Positions 20,948-35,528 of a DNA stretch of 64,000 bases are shown here, one piece after another. Under the pieces are notes generated by a model, which did no database searches, was not told the origin of the DNA, and worked only from the letters and a program-made list of their open reading frames with translations. The translations under genes and the position numbers were made by a program. Source of the stretch: Candidatus Bathyarchaeota archaeon (GTDB lineage: Archaea; Thermoproteota; Bathyarchaeia; Bathyarchaeales; Bathycorpusculaceae); the NCBI GenBank assembly GCA_026014545.1, contig JAOZIH010000001.1, positions 62,001-126,000 of the forward strand, given 5' to 3'. Position 1 is the stretch's first letter. Each line of letters opens with the position of its first letter.

Positions 20948-21394
20948 GTGAAAAAGGAATATCCTGAAAGACCCGTTGTAGGCGTCGGCGCCATAATAAT
21001 CAAAGACGGCAAAATTCTGCTGGAAAAGAGAAAGAGTGCTCCAGCAAAAGGCGAATGGAGTGTTCCCGGTGGCTTGGTGGAGCTGGGCGAAAGCATTGAG
21101 CAAGCAGTAATTCGTGAGGTGAAAGAGGAGACGGGTTTAGATGTGGCGTCGCCGCGGCTTGTTGACGTGATTGATCACATCAGCTTGGATGAGAAGGGCG
21201 CAGTGAAATATCATTTCGTAATCATTGATTACTTTGTGACTGCTACAGGCGGCGAGTTAAGGGCGGCAAGCGACGCTGATGATCTAAAATGGGTTCCTCT
21301 GGATGAAGTGGAGCAATATGATTTGACGGAATCCTTCCGCCGCTTCTTTAGGCAAAATAGGCAGAAGCTGGAAAATCCTAATTTATATTTTTGA
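20948..21394 (+). CDS. Nudix hydrolase
   Basis: A 148-residue Nudix-fold pyrophosphohydrolase. The Nudix box is complete: GGLVELGESIEQAVIREV then KEETGL, about residues 37-60. The family cleaves nucleoside diphosphates linked to another moiety; the WSVPGG-x-VE-x-GE form resembles ADP-ribose or mutT-like enzymes. The GTG start lies 28 bases after the MacB permease, so it may be the last gene of that operon. Its last 17 bases overlap the convergent herA gene. Confidence 0.85.
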   Translation: MKKEYPERPVVGVGAIIIKDGKILLEKRKSAPAKGEWSVPGGLVELGESIEQAVIREVKEETGLDVASPRLVDVIDHISLDEKGAVKYHFVIIDYFVTATGGELRAASDADDLKWVPLDEVEQYDLTESFRRFFRQNRQKLENPNLYF

Positions 21395-22838
21395 AGAACA
21401 AGCGTGTTTCTCCCATTGTCTTAAGATCCAACGGTCTTATTCTTGCAACAATCGGAAAGTCACCTACAACCTTGCCTAGCGCTAAGCAGTGATGCGGTGG
21501 CAGATCCCGGGCAATAGAGCGAATGGTCTCGGCGTCTATGCGGGAAGCGCGGGAAACCACGTCTAAGTCATGCTCGTTTGTGAAGTTGAAGAGGAAGATG
21601 TTGTCTGCTTGGCGGTAGATGTTTTCGCGTATGGTGTCAGGCTGATTGGTGATGAAAGTGGTAAATATGCCGAAATGCCTCATGCGGGTGACAATATCGT
21701 CCCAGTAGGTTTCGCGCAGATAAAGATGCGCTTCCTCAGCGAAAAGGAACACGGCTTTAAGCCTCCAGCTCTGCAGGGCGTCAACAAGCTTGCCTAAAAT
21801 GTATTCAACAACTATTTGGCGGTCTATGGTGGACGTGTTGCGTAGGTTTATGATTATGGCGCCGCCTTGCTCATTTGCCTTTAGTAGACATTCGTCCAGC
21901 AGCGTGGCTTCTGCAGGGTTATCGGTGAAAAATCCCGAGTTGACCAGCGCGTGATACCTTGATAAGAGTGCGTCGCGGACATGTTGATTGCAGTTTAGGT
22001 TTCGTATAGCTTCGCCCAGTTCGTGCAGCGTGAGACAGCCTTTTTCCTTTAGGTGTTTCCAGATGCGTCTGAACTCGCGTGCTGATGTGCCGGGCAAGTG
22101 AAGCGCGTGGGTTAGTATGCCCATCACCACGTTCAGGTGTAGCTGTTCAAGAGCTACTTTGAAGTTCTGCGCCGGCGTCAACGTGTGAATCTTGTCGTAG
22201 TGGATGTTTCTTTTTCCGTCTGCCGTTAAGCCTAGGCTGGTGTATTCGCCGTTGAGGTCGAAGACGACTACGGTTGCTTTGTACCCTACAAGGCTAACCA
22301 TGAGGAGCTTGGATAAGTGTGATTTGCCGCAGCCCTTCTTACCCGTGATTATGTTTAATGTGCCGTCTACTGCTGAGGCGTCTATAGTCAATAGCGAGGC
22401 GTCTTTTGTGCTGCCGAGCGTTATTGGCAGTTTTCCATTTACGTTTGCCAGCTTCATCAGCATAGGAATCGAAAGCTTTTTGATTGTGGACTGTGAACGG
22501 CTTGGAAGCCAGCTGCTGCTCGGGCTTAGCAGGCCATTCTCCAGCGTTGCCCGTATCTTGCAAATAAGCAAACTAGCATCTTGGATGTACGTGATGTGCG
22601 GAGCGATTTCCAGCGGGTCGATGTCTTCGCCTTGAATTGGTTCACCGCCGTCAGGCAATGTACGTAGTAACTCCTCAAGCACACCGGGAATGCAGGCGAA
22701 TTGCACGTCAATCACTTGTGCAATAAGGGCTTTCCCCGCGTCTTGATCCTCCACCAGCAAATAGTCGCCTTTCTCCGCGTTCTCGTTGGGGAAGCTTAGG
22801 ATGTGGAGGACGTTGCCTTCCTTCTTGTAGAGTTTCAT
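21378..22838 (-). CDS. herA: HerA-like DNA translocase ATPase
   Basis: A 486-residue HerA/FtsK-superfamily ATPase. It has an N-terminal beta-barrel HAS domain (about 1-110), Walker A ITGKKGCGKSHLSKLL (about 164-178), Walker B VFLFAEEAHLYLRET with EEAH in place of the usual DEAH, and a downstream sensor and arginine region (NQPDTIRENIYRQADNIFL). HerA forms hexameric rings that drive the NurA nuclease in end resection with Mre11-Rad50. Here it overlaps nurA by four bases; mre11 and rad50 are not in the window. The gene order nurA-herA without them is the unusual point. Confidence 0.88.
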   Translation of the reverse strand: MKLYKKEGNVLHILSFPNENAEKGDYLLVEDQDAGKALIAQVIDVQFACIPGVLEELLRTLPDGGEPIQGEDIDPLEIAPHITYIQDASLLICKIRATLENGLLSPSSSWLPSRSQSTIKKLSIPMLMKLANVNGKLPITLGSTKDASLLTIDASAVDGTLNIITGKKGCGKSHLSKLLMVSLVGYKATVVVFDLNGEYTSLGLTADGKRNIHYDKIHTLTPAQNFKVALEQLHLNVVMGILTHALHLPGTSAREFRRIWKHLKEKGCLTLHELGEAIRNLNCNQHVRDALLSRYHALVNSGFFTDNPAEATLLDECLLKANEQGGAIIINLRNTSTIDRQIVVEYILGKLVDALQSWRLKAVFLFAEEAHLYLRETYWDDIVTRMRHFGIFTTFITNQPDTIRENIYRQADNIFLFNFTNEHDLDVVSRASRIDAETIRSIARDLPPHHCLALGKVVGDFPIVARIRPLDLKTMGETRLFFKNIN

Positions 22839-23917
22839 GCGTAGCCTTCACCCTTGCCGAATGGCCCGAATAAGAGGCGATGCATGTCAGGTCGGTTAAT
22901 CATTTTTATACCATGCTTCCGCGTGATGAAATGTTGCATTGCAAGAACTTCATTCGCAGTGAACGTACATAGAATATGCGCTAACCGCAGCGTTTCCGGG
23001 TAACTCTGCATACAGAGGTCGTTGCCCAAAAGCTTCTCAATTGATTCTATCTTCTGCTGATGAGCGATTTCTCTGTCGATGTCTAGGCGGAAGGCGTAGC
23101 TTGCCCTGTTCAAGCGTGCCACGTAGACATCGCCAAGCGGCACTGTCGGCGGCTTGAATTGCAAGCCGGCGGTTTCCAGTAGGTACGGCGGTTCTTGCTC
23201 TGGAAGGAGGTCGGTGATGAGGTAGCCGTTAACTCTTAGTGTGGTCATTTTTGAGAAGGCAAGCACTACATTGCCGTTTCTTCTTGCTTCATCAAGAATT
23301 TCCTTCAGACGCTGCACGGGCGTGTCAAATGTTCCAGCGGTTAATGAGCCGTCAAAGAGTATTAGCCCGTTGGTTACGGTTTTTGCGAGCACTGATTGCA
23401 GCCAGCGCTCAAGTAGGTTTGCCAGTCGCGTGGGCATCTGCATGAGATTCGGTGCTGCTTGGTGGCTACTTACTGATTGTGTATGGAAGCATGCGGTTTC
23501 TAGCGTGTGGTAGACTTCTTTTTTGTTTTCTTCGGTTATGTGAAATATGAATGGGCCTAGGCGTTTGTAGTGGTAGGTGCGGTTTTGTTTTCGGACGGTG
23601 GCGCCGCGTATGGCGAGTATGATGCCTTTGCTTGTTTCGCCGATTTTTATTGTGGATGTGTCCACTGCGGCAATTGGCGTTTCCTGATGATTTGCTTTTA
23701 GCAGTATTGGTGTGCGTTTGAGTTGCATGTGCTGCGGCGCGTGCTCCTTGTTGCAGAATTGTTGAAAGGTTTGTTGATTTAGTTGAAAAGTTGTGTTGTG
23801 CACTTGTCTCAGCGAGTGGAGGCTTAGCTCCAAAAATTGTTGCGTTAATGTTGTGTCGGGCGTGATTTGTGGAAAGTTATATTTGGGTGTTGTTGTTATT
23901 GTATATTGTTCAATCAC
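22835..23917 (-). CDS. nurA: NurA-domain nuclease
   Basis: A nuclease of about 360 residues that partners HerA. NurA motifs are visible: IAAVDTSTIKI (about residue 100, acidic metal ligand), GLILFDGSLTAG (second acidic motif) and VVLAFSKM (conserved lysine), then a C-terminal region with EVLAMQHFITRKHG. The Mn-dependent RNase H-like fold degrades 5' ends. I chose the GTG at 23917, with GGTGA five bases upstream, over TTG at 23929 or GTG at 23926. It is the first gene of the nurA-herA operon and shares a short divergent promoter region with the winged-helix gene at 24009. Confidence 0.85.
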   Translation of the reverse strand: MIEQYTITTTPKYNFPQITPDTTLTQQFLELSLHSLRQVHNTTFQLNQQTFQQFCNKEHAPQHMQLKRTPILLKANHQETPIAAVDTSTIKIGETSKGIILAIRGATVRKQNRTYHYKRLGPFIFHITEENKKEVYHTLETACFHTQSVSSHQAAPNLMQMPTRLANLLERWLQSVLAKTVTNGLILFDGSLTAGTFDTPVQRLKEILDEARRNGNVVLAFSKMTTLRVNGYLITDLLPEQEPPYLLETAGLQFKPPTVPLGDVYVARLNRASYAFRLDIDREIAHQQKIESIEKLLGNDLCMQSYPETLRLAHILCTFTANEVLAMQHFITRKHGIKMINRPDMHRLLFGPFGKGEGYA

Positions 23918-23962
23918 TAAATTCACCAATAATCAATAAGGTTTAAATGCATTATTTAAGTG

Positions 23963-32149: not shown

Positions 32150-34072
32150 ATGCTGATACAGGAAGTCATCTTGGAGAACTTCATGAGCTACGAGTACGCT
32201 AGGGTGCCCTTTAAACCAGGCGTGAACGTTATCTGCGGTCCGAACGGCGCTGGGAAATCATCACTGCTCTTGGCTATTTCCGTGGCGCTGGGGCAGTCTT
32301 ACACTGAGCGCTCAAGAAAACTAAGCGATCTGATTCGTTGGGGTAAAGACAGAGCGCGTGTTACGCTCATTTTGGATAATAGCAAGCGAGGCGGCAGGCG
32401 TCCAGTGCCTAAGTACAGCAAAGACCGAATTTTTCTAACCCGCGTTCTGCGCCGCGATGGCAAATACTGGTTTGAGCTGGAAAATCGCGCGGCCACGAAG
32501 GAGGATGTTGAACGCTTGCTGGGCAGATTCGGCGTTGACCCCGACAACATGCTTATTATTATGCACCAGAGCATGGTGGAACAGTTCACCGTGCTCTCCA
32601 GCGTGGAGAAGTTGCGCATGGTTGAGGCGGCTGTGGGTTTAGAACCGTTCCGCGAGAATGTGCTGGAGGCTCAGCGCAAATTAACGCGCATTCTCAGCCA
32701 GGAAGAGTCTGTCAGCAAGCTGCTTGAGTCGGCGGAGCAGACCTTGAGTTACTGGCGTGAGCAATACGAGCGTTATCAGGAGAAAAAGCAGCTGCAGACC
32801 AAACGGCGTTTCCTTGAGCGCGAGTCGGCGTGGGCTGAGGTGGAACGCCGCGAGAGCACGCTTAAAGCGTTGGAGGCAGAGCGGCACAGAAACGAGGAAA
32901 ATCTGAGCCGAGTTGAAGCTGAAATAAAAACTGTGAAGGGTGATCTGGAAAACTTGCAGAGCCAGCAGCGCACGTTAAGAGAGGCGCTAAAGGAGGCTTT
33001 CAGCGAGCGGTTGAGTTTTGAGCGTGAGATTGCCGAGAACGAAGCCACCTTAGCCTTGTGCGAGCAGCTGCTTACAGAGGCTTTGCTTCTGGAGTCGACG
33101 ATTCAGAAAAACTCAGGCCAGTTCAAACTGATGCGCAGTGAAAACTTGCGGGCAATGCTTGAAAATGCTAGGCGACATCTTTCAACGGTAAATTCAAGAT
33201 TGAAAGAAAATCAGGCTCGAATGCAAAGTTTGGAAGAAGACGCTGGCAAAGTGGCAGAGGAAATTTTAGATAACCGCGTTCAACTTGCTCTGCTGCAGTA
33301 TCGCAGAGAAACCGCCGTGACTGATTTAGAGCGAATAGACGCGGCGCTTAAAGAAGCAAAAGCCACCCTAAGCGAGGTTATCGCCAAGGCGGAGCAGACT
33401 GGCACCCGAATTGCCGTGCTGAAAAGCACCGCGGAAATTCAAGATGAAATCCGCGTTACAGAGGGGCATTTGGCGGCGCTTGCCGACGTTTCCGAGGATA
33501 TAGAACGCATGTACGAGTCTTACTCTAAGCTTTATCTGGAGTTAAAGGAGAAGGCGCAGCTGGTTGCCGAGAACCGCGAGAAGACTCTTGAAGAAGTGAA
33601 AGTGCGCATGGACGCATGGCGAAGCGTCATGCAGAGCTTGCTGGATCGCGTGAACCTTGAGTATCAGAAGATTCTGAGCCAGATGCTTGCGACGGGCGAG
33701 GTGCGGCTTGCCAACGGGCACGATATTGAAACTGCAGGCTTAGAGATTCTTGTAGGCTTTAAAGGCGGAAAACCCGTTCCTTTGGATTCTTACACTCAAA
33801 GCGGCGGCGAAAGAACCACGGCAACCATGAGCTTCCTTCTTGCGTTGCAGCAACATGTGCGCTCGCCGTTTAGGGCAGTGGATGAATATGACATTCACAT
33901 GGACCCCAGAAACAGGGAGATGATTGCACGCATGCTTTTGTCGCTGATAAAGGATGCCACCGCGCAGTATATCGTTATCACGCCAAGCCAAATTACTTTC
34001 GCACAGGAAAACGTGAACATCATCACGGTGCAGAATGTTGAAGGTAAATCAGTAGTCCGTGAGGTTACGTAG
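32150..34072 (+). CDS. Compact Smc5/6-like SMC ATPase
   Basis: A 640-residue SMC-family ATPase. The N-terminal head has Walker A CGPNGAGKSS (about 29-38) and a Q-loop region IIMHQSMVEQF. About 165-490 is heptad-rich coiled coil. The C-terminal head has TQSGGERTTATMSFLLALQ (signature, from about 549), Walker B FRAVDEYDIHMDPRNRE (D578, E579) and YIVITPSQI. The spelling QSGGER-x-x-x-TM-x-x-L-x-ALQ, PFR-x-VDE and MDPRNR is that of eukaryotic Smc5, and DEYDIHMD recalls Smc6; archaeal Smc has LSGGE and LFDEIDAALD-like motifs. There is no ~150-residue hinge and no CxxC zinc hook; the arms must meet in a very short turn near residue 310. It heads an overlapping operon with a kleisin-like and a KITE-like gene. 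The Smc5/6 assignment is by motif recall, not by alignment. Confidence 0.85.
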   Translation: MLIQEVILENFMSYEYARVPFKPGVNVICGPNGAGKSSLLLAISVALGQSYTERSRKLSDLIRWGKDRARVTLILDNSKRGGRRPVPKYSKDRIFLTRVLRRDGKYWFELENRAATKEDVERLLGRFGVDPDNMLIIMHQSMVEQFTVLSSVEKLRMVEAAVGLEPFRENVLEAQRKLTRILSQEESVSKLLESAEQTLSYWREQYERYQEKKQLQTKRRFLERESAWAEVERRESTLKALEAERHRNEENLSRVEAEIKTVKGDLENLQSQQRTLREALKEAFSERLSFEREIAENEATLALCEQLLTEALLLESTIQKNSGQFKLMRSENLRAMLENARRHLSTVNSRLKENQARMQSLEEDAGKVAEEILDNRVQLALLQYRRETAVTDLERIDAALKEAKATLSEVIAKAEQTGTRIAVLKSTAEIQDEIRVTEGHLAALADVSEDIERMYESYSKLYLELKEKAQLVAENREKTLEEVKVRMDAWRSVMQSLLDRVNLEYQKILSQMLATGEVRLANGHDIETAGLEILVGFKGGKPVPLDSYTQSGGERTTATMSFLLALQQHVRSPFRAVDEYDIHMDPRNREMIARMLLSLIKDATAQYIVITPSQITFAQENVNIITVQNVEGKSVVREVT

Positions 34073-34899
34073 TGCACTCCAAAAAAGAGCAAAAGAAACT
34101 TGGCAGAGAAAAACTGCAGCGCATTATAGAGATGTGCCTGGCAATTGAAAATCACACGGTAGACCCTTTCATGCTGGATGTTGACAACATACTTGCAATT
34201 GTCAAAGAGTATTTTCCGCAGTGGGAGCAAGCTGAAGAGCTTAACTTGGATGCAGAAGCCATTCACCATTTAGCCTCAGTTATAAAGCTCCAAAGCGAGT
34301 GGGTTAAGCACCGTAGCACATCGCTTTACACAGACCCATTTCTGCTTGAAGAAAAACTCACGCAGGCAACCAAAGAAGAAATGCTAAGCATATTCCTCAA
34401 GGCTTGGCATCCCATAGTTGAGCTGGAGCAGCTTAGCCTCCACAGCTTCGCTGAGGCGTTGCGGTACTGGGAAACGCTGGTGCCGCTTAAGGACAGGTGG
34501 CCTGAGCTGGCAGTTCCAGAAGTTGCCGCGGGCACCGCCACAAGAGACGAATTAGTTAAACAGCGCATTCTCAGCGACAAAGTCTTCTCGGAAGAGCTGG
34601 AATGCTATTGGCAAGAGCTGAAAGCGAAAGTTGGCGAGAAAGGTTCTGACGGAAAAATGCCATACTGGGACTTCATCGGCGCCGACACTTATGAGGAAAC
34701 GGTGCAGCGCGCTTTCCTGACAAGTTTTCTGGTAACCTACGGCTACGCCGCTTTGGAGATTCATCCTTTGGAGGAGGCTGTTTTCATTAAGCCGCTTGAA
34801 AAACCCTTATCGAAAATTAGCGCGCAACAGTTGATTTCAATTCCGATATCGGTTACTTTTGAGAATTGGCAAAAGTGGAAAAGAGGCGAATTAAAGTGA
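34072..34899 (+). CDS. Kleisin-like (ScpA/Nse4-type) protein
   Basis: A 275-residue protein. The N-terminal ~90 residues follow the ScpA pattern: HTVDPFMLDVDNILAIV, a middle helix, then LNLDAEAIHHLASVIKLQSE, which corresponds to the DPWDIDI and LLRIKSE parts of ScpA that bind the SMC neck. The C-terminal part (AFLTSFLVTYGYAALEIHPLEEAVF) resembles the kleisin winged helix that closes the ring on the other SMC head. The middle is helical and would carry the KITE-binding segment. The GTG start overlaps the SMC stop by one base and the gene overlaps the next by four. Similarity is judged by eye, so the kleisin assignment rests partly on the operon. Confidence 0.65.
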   Translation: MHSKKEQKKLGREKLQRIIEMCLAIENHTVDPFMLDVDNILAIVKEYFPQWEQAEELNLDAEAIHHLASVIKLQSEWVKHRSTSLYTDPFLLEEKLTQATKEEMLSIFLKAWHPIVELEQLSLHSFAEALRYWETLVPLKDRWPELAVPEVAAGTATRDELVKQRILSDKVFSEELECYWQELKAKVGEKGSDGKMPYWDFIGADTYEETVQRAFLTSFLVTYGYAALEIHPLEEAVFIKPLEKPLSKISAQQLISIPISVTFENWQKWKRGELK

Positions 34900-35528
34900 G
34901 CAAGCGAAAAGGTTTGTATGCAAGCAAAATGAAGCGGGCGACGCATATGCTGTTTTACAGGCGCCATCAGAAGCCTGGCGTTAAAGGCTGGGAGCTGCGT
35001 AGAGTTTTAGGCTCAGATTACCCGAAAGTATTGGAAATTCTTGATGATTACTTGAAAAGCTTGGACTTGCAGGTTAAAACCGTTTTTGAAGAGGGAAAAA
35101 CGCCAGCTGGAAAGCCTTCGCTGGAAGAATTAGACAAAGCGCGATTCTACATTACGCTAAGGGGCGAGTTGACGCCGAAAGAAGCGAAAATGATTGGCTG
35201 GCGAATAGACGACTTAGCTGGCTTAGCCGTTGCCATTGTCTACATAATCAGCAAGAAGGGCCAAGCGCCACGTAAGGACGTGGAGGCAATGCTAAGCGAA
35301 AAGCTGCCAGGCTGGAAGGTTGGTTTAAACGTTGAGCGTTACATTCGCTATGGCTACCTACAGCAAGATGACAAGGAGCAGTTGTATCTGGACTGGCGAA
35401 CTTTAGCAGAAGTGGATGAGAAGGCGCTGACAGACTTTCTTCTGAAAAGTGAAGCGCAGACAACCTTGCCGACTGAAGGTGCCGAGGAAAACCTTGACAT
35501 CGAAGAGGAAGATAGCGAAACATCATAA
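34896..35528 (+). CDS. KITE-like tandem winged-helix protein (ScpB/Nse3-type)
   Basis: A 210-residue protein starting at GTG 34896 (GTGA overlap with the kleisin stop, GAGG upstream). Two winged-helix-like regions are visible: about 15-75 (KPGVKGWELRRVLGSDYPKV) and about 100-175 (DDLAGLAVAIVYIISKKGQA, then VERYIRYGYLQQDDKEQLYL). The second resembles the MAGE/Nse3 domain, in which a GLL-x-IVL helix is followed by a KYL-x-Y wing and a W-x-x-R-A-x-E end; here DWRTLAEVDEKAL. The C-terminus is acidic. KITE proteins dimerise on the kleisin and bind DNA. ScpB-like and Nse3-like readings both fit. Confidence 0.6.
   Translation: MSKRKGLYASKMKRATHMLFYRRHQKPGVKGWELRRVLGSDYPKVLEILDDYLKSLDLQVKTVFEEGKTPAGKPSLEELDKARFYITLRGELTPKEAKMIGWRIDDLAGLAVAIVYIISKKGQAPRKDVEAMLSEKLPGWKVGLNVERYIRYGYLQQDDKEQLYLDWRTLAEVDEKALTDFLLKSEAQTTLPTEGAEENLDIEEEDSETS

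Follow-up and report, generated by a model that had tools for sequence, protein, structure and literature searches.

The window, a 64,000-nucleotide stretch of DNA from a Candidatus Bathyarchaeota genome, contains three overlapping genes which raise the question of whether an archaeon encodes a relative of the entire core of the eukaryotic Smc5/6 complex, and of what such a small assembly could be used for. The three ORFs (32150–35528, + strand) encode an SMC ATPase of 640 aa, a kleisin of 275 aa and a KITE protein of ~210 aa, and were found where a preliminary description had placed an SMC-kleisin-KITE operon whose genes overlap by 1 and 4 bases. The SMC stop codon TAG (34070–34072) ends on the first base of the kleisin start codon GTG (34072), and the kleisin stop codon TGA (34897–34899) overlaps the KITE start codon GTG (34896) within the four bases GTGA. 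This grouping goes beyond chance, as the three genes occur together in 79 of 80 Bathyarchaeia loci, nearly always adjacent, and in 17 of the 20 loci sampled phylum-wide. The former set represents the best 80 loci from a contig scan with the window SMC protein, nearly all of them from Bathyarchaeia; the whole-genome searches were centred on the phylum of the window.

A hinge-less SMC ATPase with an Smc5/6-type head

The head of the SMC ATPase (32150–34072, + strand) falls into the Smc5/6 clade, and not with canonical SMC or Rad50 proteins. When compared to the PDB, the window SMC matched Smc5 at 1.4e-36 and the best prokaryotic SMC at 1.7e-24, and a profile search returned Smc6 (5e-54) and Smc5 (1.6e-47) ahead of prokaryotic Smc (1e-35). 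As a control, the genome's own canonical SMC gave the reverse pattern, with prokaryotic Smc at 1.7e-105, Smc2–4 at ~1e-53 and Smc5 at just 8e-12. In a tree of head domains, sampled with four eukaryotic Smc5/6 sequences and no Smc1–4, a clade of Smc5, Smc6 and the short archaeal SMCs was recovered with support of 99.7/100 and weak internal branching, and Rad50-like proteins fell outside. Both the scores and the tree bear out the earlier proposal that the head resembles Smc5/6 and not the canonical archaeal Smc. This kinship of the motor is not in itself new, since archaeal ‘SMC5/6-related’ SMCs grouping with eukaryotic SMC5/6 (100%/0.99) are already on record in a published study (PMC9389158, citing Yoshinaga & Inagaki 2021), and these very probably include the present family. 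As far as covered here, that study describes neither a kleisin or KITE partner nor the absence of a hinge for its archaeal SMCs, and the consulted papers that cite the van Hooff et al. 2024 preprint (10.1101/2024.01.07.573240) are silent on its archaeal findings.

The catalytic motifs were compared across 49 relatives and a further 20 sampled phylum-wide. The Walker A motif GPNGAGKS (residues 30–37; 32237–32260) was invariant except for residue 34 (Ala or Ser), and the ABC signature SGGER (residues 551–555; 33800–33814) was fully invariant, as were Asp578 and the catalytic Glu579 of the Walker B segment FRAVDE (residues 574–579; 33869–33886), two residues that alignments show to be shared with Smc5 and Smc6. 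Of the motifs originally singled out, QSGGER, PFRAVDEY (within PFRAVDEYD), MDPRNR and ITPSQ were confirmed as present, with their core residues invariant in both sets.

In the AlphaFold2 model (pLDDT 85), the head is followed by a long arm helix (residues 165–321, ~157 residues; 32642–33112), an 8-residue apex loop in the usual place of the hinge (residues 322–329; 33113–33136) and a returning arm (residues 330–511; 33137–33682), which is predicted to run as a helix over residues 330–417 and to lead back to the head in a kinked manner, with the kinked element at residues 418–449. Residues 433–478 of this arm are rich in conserved residues among the 49 relatives. Pfam SMC_hinge gave no match in the window SMC, and none in 20 relatives among the matches listed; a CxxC zinc hook was likewise absent from the arms in both alignments (49 and 20 sequences). 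A protein with neither hinge nor zinc hook had been anticipated from the letters of the window.

Nse4-like and Nse1/Nse3-like partners

The kleisin (34072–34899, + strand) is, judged by its sequence, Nse4-like. Its profile matched Nse4 (1.3e-6) and EID3 (5.5e-6) in the PDB, and ScpA only at 0.017; Pfam ScpA had no match among close or distant family members. The C-terminal region (residues ~198–269; 34663–34878) holds a Pfam Nse4_C match at residues 204–269, which for the window kleisin alone scores 20.6, under the Pfam gathering score of 26; the domain was matched in 47 of 57 close and 16 of 23 distant members. The same search found nothing in 14 control genomes, and within the genome of the window it picked out the kleisin gene only. 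The second gene was rightly recognised as a kleisin in the preliminary description, and its ScpA-like label gives way to an Nse4-like one.

For the KITE protein (34896–35528, + strand; GTG start, 210 aa), the listed ORF is open upstream to a TTG at 34866, and the conserved part starts at ~34896–34902. As the sequence profile had no significant match in the PDB, a fold search was needed. The AlphaFold2 model, of moderate quality (pLDDT 75, pTM 0.54), contains two winged helices (residues 2–88, 34899–35159; residues 104–165, 35205–35390), and Nse1/MAGE-G1 folds, with Nse3/MAGE-G1 among the best, took ranks 1–4 ahead of JetB, ScpB and MukE. Pfam MAGE and SMC_Nse1 were the two commonest weak matches among distant members, the best reaching 2.8e-4 in one member and the window KITE having none, and Pfam ScpB did not match the family. 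A RING domain was not found on the KITE protein, and 40 relatives have 0–2 cysteines each. The modelled fold is that of a KITE protein most like Nse1/Nse3, in line with the tandem winged-helix, Nse3/MAGE-like protein first suspected.

Distribution and gene neighbourhood

The kleisin was found in 160 of 398 sampled genomes. At least 15 related genomes, including some assembled as a single contig, lack the genes of the complex. In the genome of the window, a Bathyarchaeia-type MAG, the search for a canonical system that had been proposed from the start located Smc-ScpA-ScpB at a separate locus (G000:C2:3-4824). Both systems are present in this genome and 77 others, and the remaining 82 of the 160 kleisin genomes gave no Pfam hinge match. 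Five of these 82 were checked individually: three (G004, G030 and G062) lack any long SMC, and the other two carry SMCs of 1128 and 1159 aa. The hinge-family screen was rejected as a clean test for canonical SMC because of the latter two genomes. In a few lineages, the hinge-less protein may have no other SMC alongside it apart from Rad50-like proteins.

Rpo1/L30e/NusA genes, an unknown protein of 230 aa and an Lhr-type helicase recur as neighbours of the operon, the helicase adjoining it in 13 of the 20 distant loci. No JetD-type nuclease recurs among the flanking ORFs, which were family-searched in part, nor does any other effector recur beside the operon. Searches of viral contigs gave no relatives for KITE and, for SMC, only distant ABC/SMC-like ATPases (22–49% over parts); plasmids held no close relative, the best being an annotated SMC with 25% identity.

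A putative minimal DNA clamp and its alternatives

Three largely independent lines, the SMC head, the kleisin and the KITE fold, lead to Smc5/6. We consider it probable (roughly 70%) that the three genes encode a minimal yet complete putative SMC-kleisin-KITE complex of the Smc5/6 lineage which acts as a DNA clamp, and the suggestion of an archaeal relative of the Smc5/6-Nse4-Nse3 core is supported by the same lines. The archaeal set shares with eukaryotic Smc5/6 (Smc5, Smc6, Nse4, Nse1 and Nse3) the head clade with motifs PFRxxDE, MDxxNR and ITP, the Nse4-type kleisin C-terminus and the Nse1/Nse3-type tandem winged-helix KITE. In contrast to the eukaryotic complex, it has a single gene each for SMC and KITE, where eukaryotes have pairs, arms of only ~20 nm with no hinge, no RING on the KITE protein, and no Nse2, Nse5 or Nse6 partner found beside the operon.

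The layout is also that of canonical archaeal Smc-ScpA(-ScpB), and the top NCBIfam match of the ATPase is SMC_prok_A, yet far under its cut-off (198 vs 729 bits). A divergent, hinge-less duplicate of that system, whose Smc5/6 resemblance would be a long-branch effect, is nevertheless very improbable: the canonical set has its own locus in the same genome, with an SMC of ~1180 aa that contains a hinge, ScpA and ScpB families and the reversed similarity pattern, and besides the head tree, the two partners lead, each on its own, to Nse4 and Nse1/3, Pfam giving no match to ScpA or ScpB for either. Still harder to credit is a short repair ATPase of the Rad50, RecN or ASRP type with unrelated partner genes. 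The short arms and weak profile matches to Rad50 (77 bits) and ASRP (74 bits) would fit, and ASRP (coalescin/Sph) is likewise a short prokaryotic SMC-like ATPase, but the scores lie far under the ASRP cut-off of 300 and those of Rad50, the zinc hook is missing from the aligned sequences, and Rad50-like proteins branch outside the head clade.

A Wadjet (JetABCD)- or Lamassu-type defence system that senses foreign DNA would fit the lineages devoid of the operon. The ATPase scores 112 bits with the PADLOC model mad3 and 83 bits with LmuB, and in size it is near LmuB, another short prokaryotic SMC-like protein (~650 aa; PMC10586767). Wadjet JetABCD and MukBEF also encode SMC, kleisin and KITE together, and JetB was the next KITE fold after Nse1/Nse3. 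The archaeal head sequence is however of another type, PADLOC gave no match for kleisin or KITE, and the invariant Glu579 differs from the Walker B Glu-to-Gln substitution carried by most LmuB (PMC10586767); with no recurrent nuclease or other effector, no viral KITE relative and no close plasmid relative, the defence role raised at the outset finds little support and appears quite improbable. Somewhat less remote, although still unlikely, is an Smc5/6-type complex for general chromosome organisation, standing in for condensin or Smc-ScpAB instead of serving repair. The 82 genomes with no hinge match, and the three among them lacking any long SMC, speak for it; against it stand the 78 genomes with both systems, the 1128- and 1159-aa SMCs, and the absent hinge, without which a closed ring suited to long-range folding is not obvious.

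The preferred reading, a minimal Smc5/6-type clamp, would probably have its role in chromosome maintenance or repair, as a homodimeric ATP-driven device. Two copies of the single SMC would bring their heads into engagement around ATP, with the kleisin linking one SMC at its neck to the second at its cap in the manner of Nse4 or ScpA, and two KITE copies on the middle part of the kleisin may help to keep double-stranded DNA atop the engaged heads until ATP hydrolysis opens the clamp. Since the ~20-nm arms have no known domain to close them at their distal ends, local clamping or translocation in short steps, at DNA that is damaged or branched, would be likelier than long-range loop extrusion, and the operon would represent a chromosomal maintenance factor lost in some lineages.

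In published trees, the SMCs of Smc5/6 derive from a different ancestor than Smc1–4. More tentatively, and at somewhat less than even odds, the hinge-less motor, working as a homodimer with one KITE, could be an archaeal sister of the Smc5/6 core that predates the Smc5/Smc6 and Nse1/Nse3 duplications, implying that an Smc5/6-type DNA clamp can do without a ring closed by a hinge. To the published kinship of the motor, the present analysis adds the partners resembling Nse4 and Nse1/3, the conserved operon and the lack of a hinge in the motor. If motor, kleisin and KITE form one complex, the whole core and not the ATPase alone would predate eukaryotes, and three small genes would suffice for its study. 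The missing hinge offers a natural way to find out what an SMC complex requires for clamping or moving DNA, and in many archaea of one large phylum the origin and working of Smc5/6, a complex that protects the genome in humans and yeast, could be studied on a minimal relative.

Operon structure and distribution

The three overlapping ORFs of the preliminary description are real, with the overlaps it had reported: the SMC ATPase gene opens the operon (32150-34072, + strand) and is followed on the same strand by the kleisin gene (34072-34899, GTG start) and the KITE gene (34896-35528, GTG start, open upstream to a TTG at 34866). The MAG containing the window (1.86 Mb, 98% complete) additionally encodes a canonical Smc, ScpA and ScpB set, clustered elsewhere (C2:3-4824). 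When species genomes were scanned, the named nearest relatives among the best 80 loci were almost throughout Bathyarchaeota (53–81% identity), and 79 of the 80 encoded SMC, kleisin and KITE, adjacent in almost every case. In locus L058 (2027-10066), the SMC gene is followed by unrelated genes, with kleisin and KITE absent from the next 6 kb, and in Bathyarchaeota BA2 (L084:8046-10582) an insert of ~2.5 kb with small opposite-strand ORFs separates the SMC and kleisin genes.

Across the phylum, the kleisin profile matched 160 of 398 genomes and 80 of 163 genera. The three genes were consecutive, or nearly so, in 17 of 20 loci sampled phylum-wide; of the exceptions, L128 and L131 have no adjoining SMC gene and L140 only a weak SMC match. 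Distant SMCs with a full ORF comprise 574–699 residues. Kleisin and hinge matches co-occurred in 78 of the 398 genomes, with kleisin alone in 82 and hinge alone in 97. The kleisin-only class is mixed, as two of five genomes examined encode a long SMC and three none. Two long SMCs (G017:C1:287617-290934, 1128 residues; G098:C1:355433-358834, 1159 residues) lack a Pfam SMC_hinge match, which points to divergent or altered hinges. Both kleisin and KITE were absent from at least 15 genomes of the same family or order, single-contig ones included, and the system can thus be lost.

Kinship of the subunits with Smc5/6

Compared to solved structures, the window SMC was most similar to Smc5 (1.4e-36), then Smc6, then prokaryotic SMC (1.7e-24), and the family profile likewise favored Smc6 (5e-54) and Smc5 (1.6e-47) over prokaryotic Smc (1e-35). 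The genome's own canonical SMC, included as a control, gave the reverse order (prokaryotic Smc 1.7e-105, Smc2-4 ~1e-53, Smc5 8e-12). In a tree of heads only (37 sequences, 384 columns), all 20 short archaeal SMCs joined human and yeast Smc5 and Smc6 with support of 99.7/100, and canonical SMC and Rad50-like proteins branched separately; the tree contained four eukaryotic sequences, with Smc1-4 left out, and branching order within the clade was weak. Profiles, control and tree agree in grouping the head with Smc5/6. A fold search with the SMC model ranked Smc6 first, with other SMC heads so close behind that it is not discriminating alone. The best PADLOC match of SMC residues 436–640 (window 33455-34069) was mad3 (112 bits), from the MADS defence system, ahead of LmuB.

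In the AlphaFold2 model of the SMC (pLDDT 85), the head carries a pair of long arm helices with an apex of 8 residues; the N-terminal arm helix spans about 157 residues (~23 nm, taking 0.15 nm per residue). The lack of a hinge and of a zinc hook noted earlier is upheld by this model, by the absence of hinge families among the matches listed for 20 members, and by the absence of CxxC from every aligned arm. Canonical SMCs and eukaryotic Smc5/6 alike bear hinges, so the simplest reading is hinge loss on the stem of the short archaeal SMC family.

Pfam Nse4_C matched 47 of 57 close kleisins (best 1.8e-6); among the distant ones the tally was 16 of 23 (best 5.6e-9). None of 14 control genomes gave a match, and in the window's genome the operon kleisin alone did. 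The distant-kleisin profile retrieved yeast Nse4 at 1.3e-6 and human EID3 at 5.5e-6, whereas the next match, ScpA, reached only 0.017. The protein described as ScpA-like is better termed Nse4-like.

A tandem pair of winged helices makes up the KITE in its AlphaFold2 model (pLDDT 75). The four best fold matches all came from the NSE1-MAGE-G1 and Nse1-Nse3-Nse4 complexes (individual chains, E 3e-5 to 1.4e-4); JetB ranked next, and ScpB and MukE lower. The commonest Pfam matches among 23 members, MAGE (8, best 2.8e-4) and SMC_Nse1 (5, best 1.6e-3), are singly weak, and it is their agreement with the SMC and kleisin results that makes them persuasive. A working KITE has been argued to be generally absent from archaeal canonical Smc complexes (PMC7055376), which makes its conservation here more notable.

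Gene neighborhood and the question of defence

Genes for Rpo1, L30e and NusA-like proteins are frequently found close to the operon in Bathyarchaeia. A 230-residue protein without Pfam match is encoded near the operon in 33 loci (27 from Bathyarchaeia, 6 distant), divergently and upstream in 32 of them (e.g. L050:3923-4615, - strand), and is a possible functional partner; in the window's own genome it is found ~55 kb from the operon (G000:C33:38294-38989). In 13 of 20 distant loci (among L121-L139, e.g. L133:3988-6840) an Lhr-type helicase gene adjoins the operon; in most of them it is convergent with the KITE gene, which it overlaps or abuts. HerA and NurA form an archaeal DNA-end resection pair, and genes for a HerA-type helicase (Pfam DUF87) and a NurA-domain protein lie upstream of the operon at a distance of about 8 kb (window 21378-23929, - strand).

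No recurrent nuclease or other effector was found among the neighbors. The role in defence considered in the preliminary description is made unlikely by the housekeeping-like gene setting, by the lack of close relatives in viral and plasmid collections and by retention of the catalytic glutamate.

Relation to the Smc5/6 complex and proposed mechanism

The proposal of a minimal archaeal relative of the Smc5/6 core was correct in its main point, and the operon is conserved. It is a relative of that core and not a Smc5/6 complex, because three features of the latter fail here: the hinge, the paired SMCs and KITEs, of which no pairs were found, and the RING, absent from a KITE with only 0–2 cysteines. 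The kinship of the motor is not new, as PMC9389158 (2022), citing Yoshinaga & Inagaki 2021, places eukaryotic SMC5/6 and 'SMC5/6-related' archaeal SMCs in one clade (100%/0.99). The Nse4-like and Nse1/3-like partners, the operon and the hinge absence were undescribed in the literature searched, outside which lies the likeliest source, van Hooff et al. 2024.

In the proposed mechanism, two SMC heads would engage upon ATP binding and be bridged by the kleisin, on which a pair of KITEs would sit and aid DNA grip on the heads, by analogy to Smc5/6. As no known dimerisation domain would join the far ends of the hinge-less arms, which may instead be closed by arm-arm contact or another closing factor, a local clamp is more likely than long-range extrusion.
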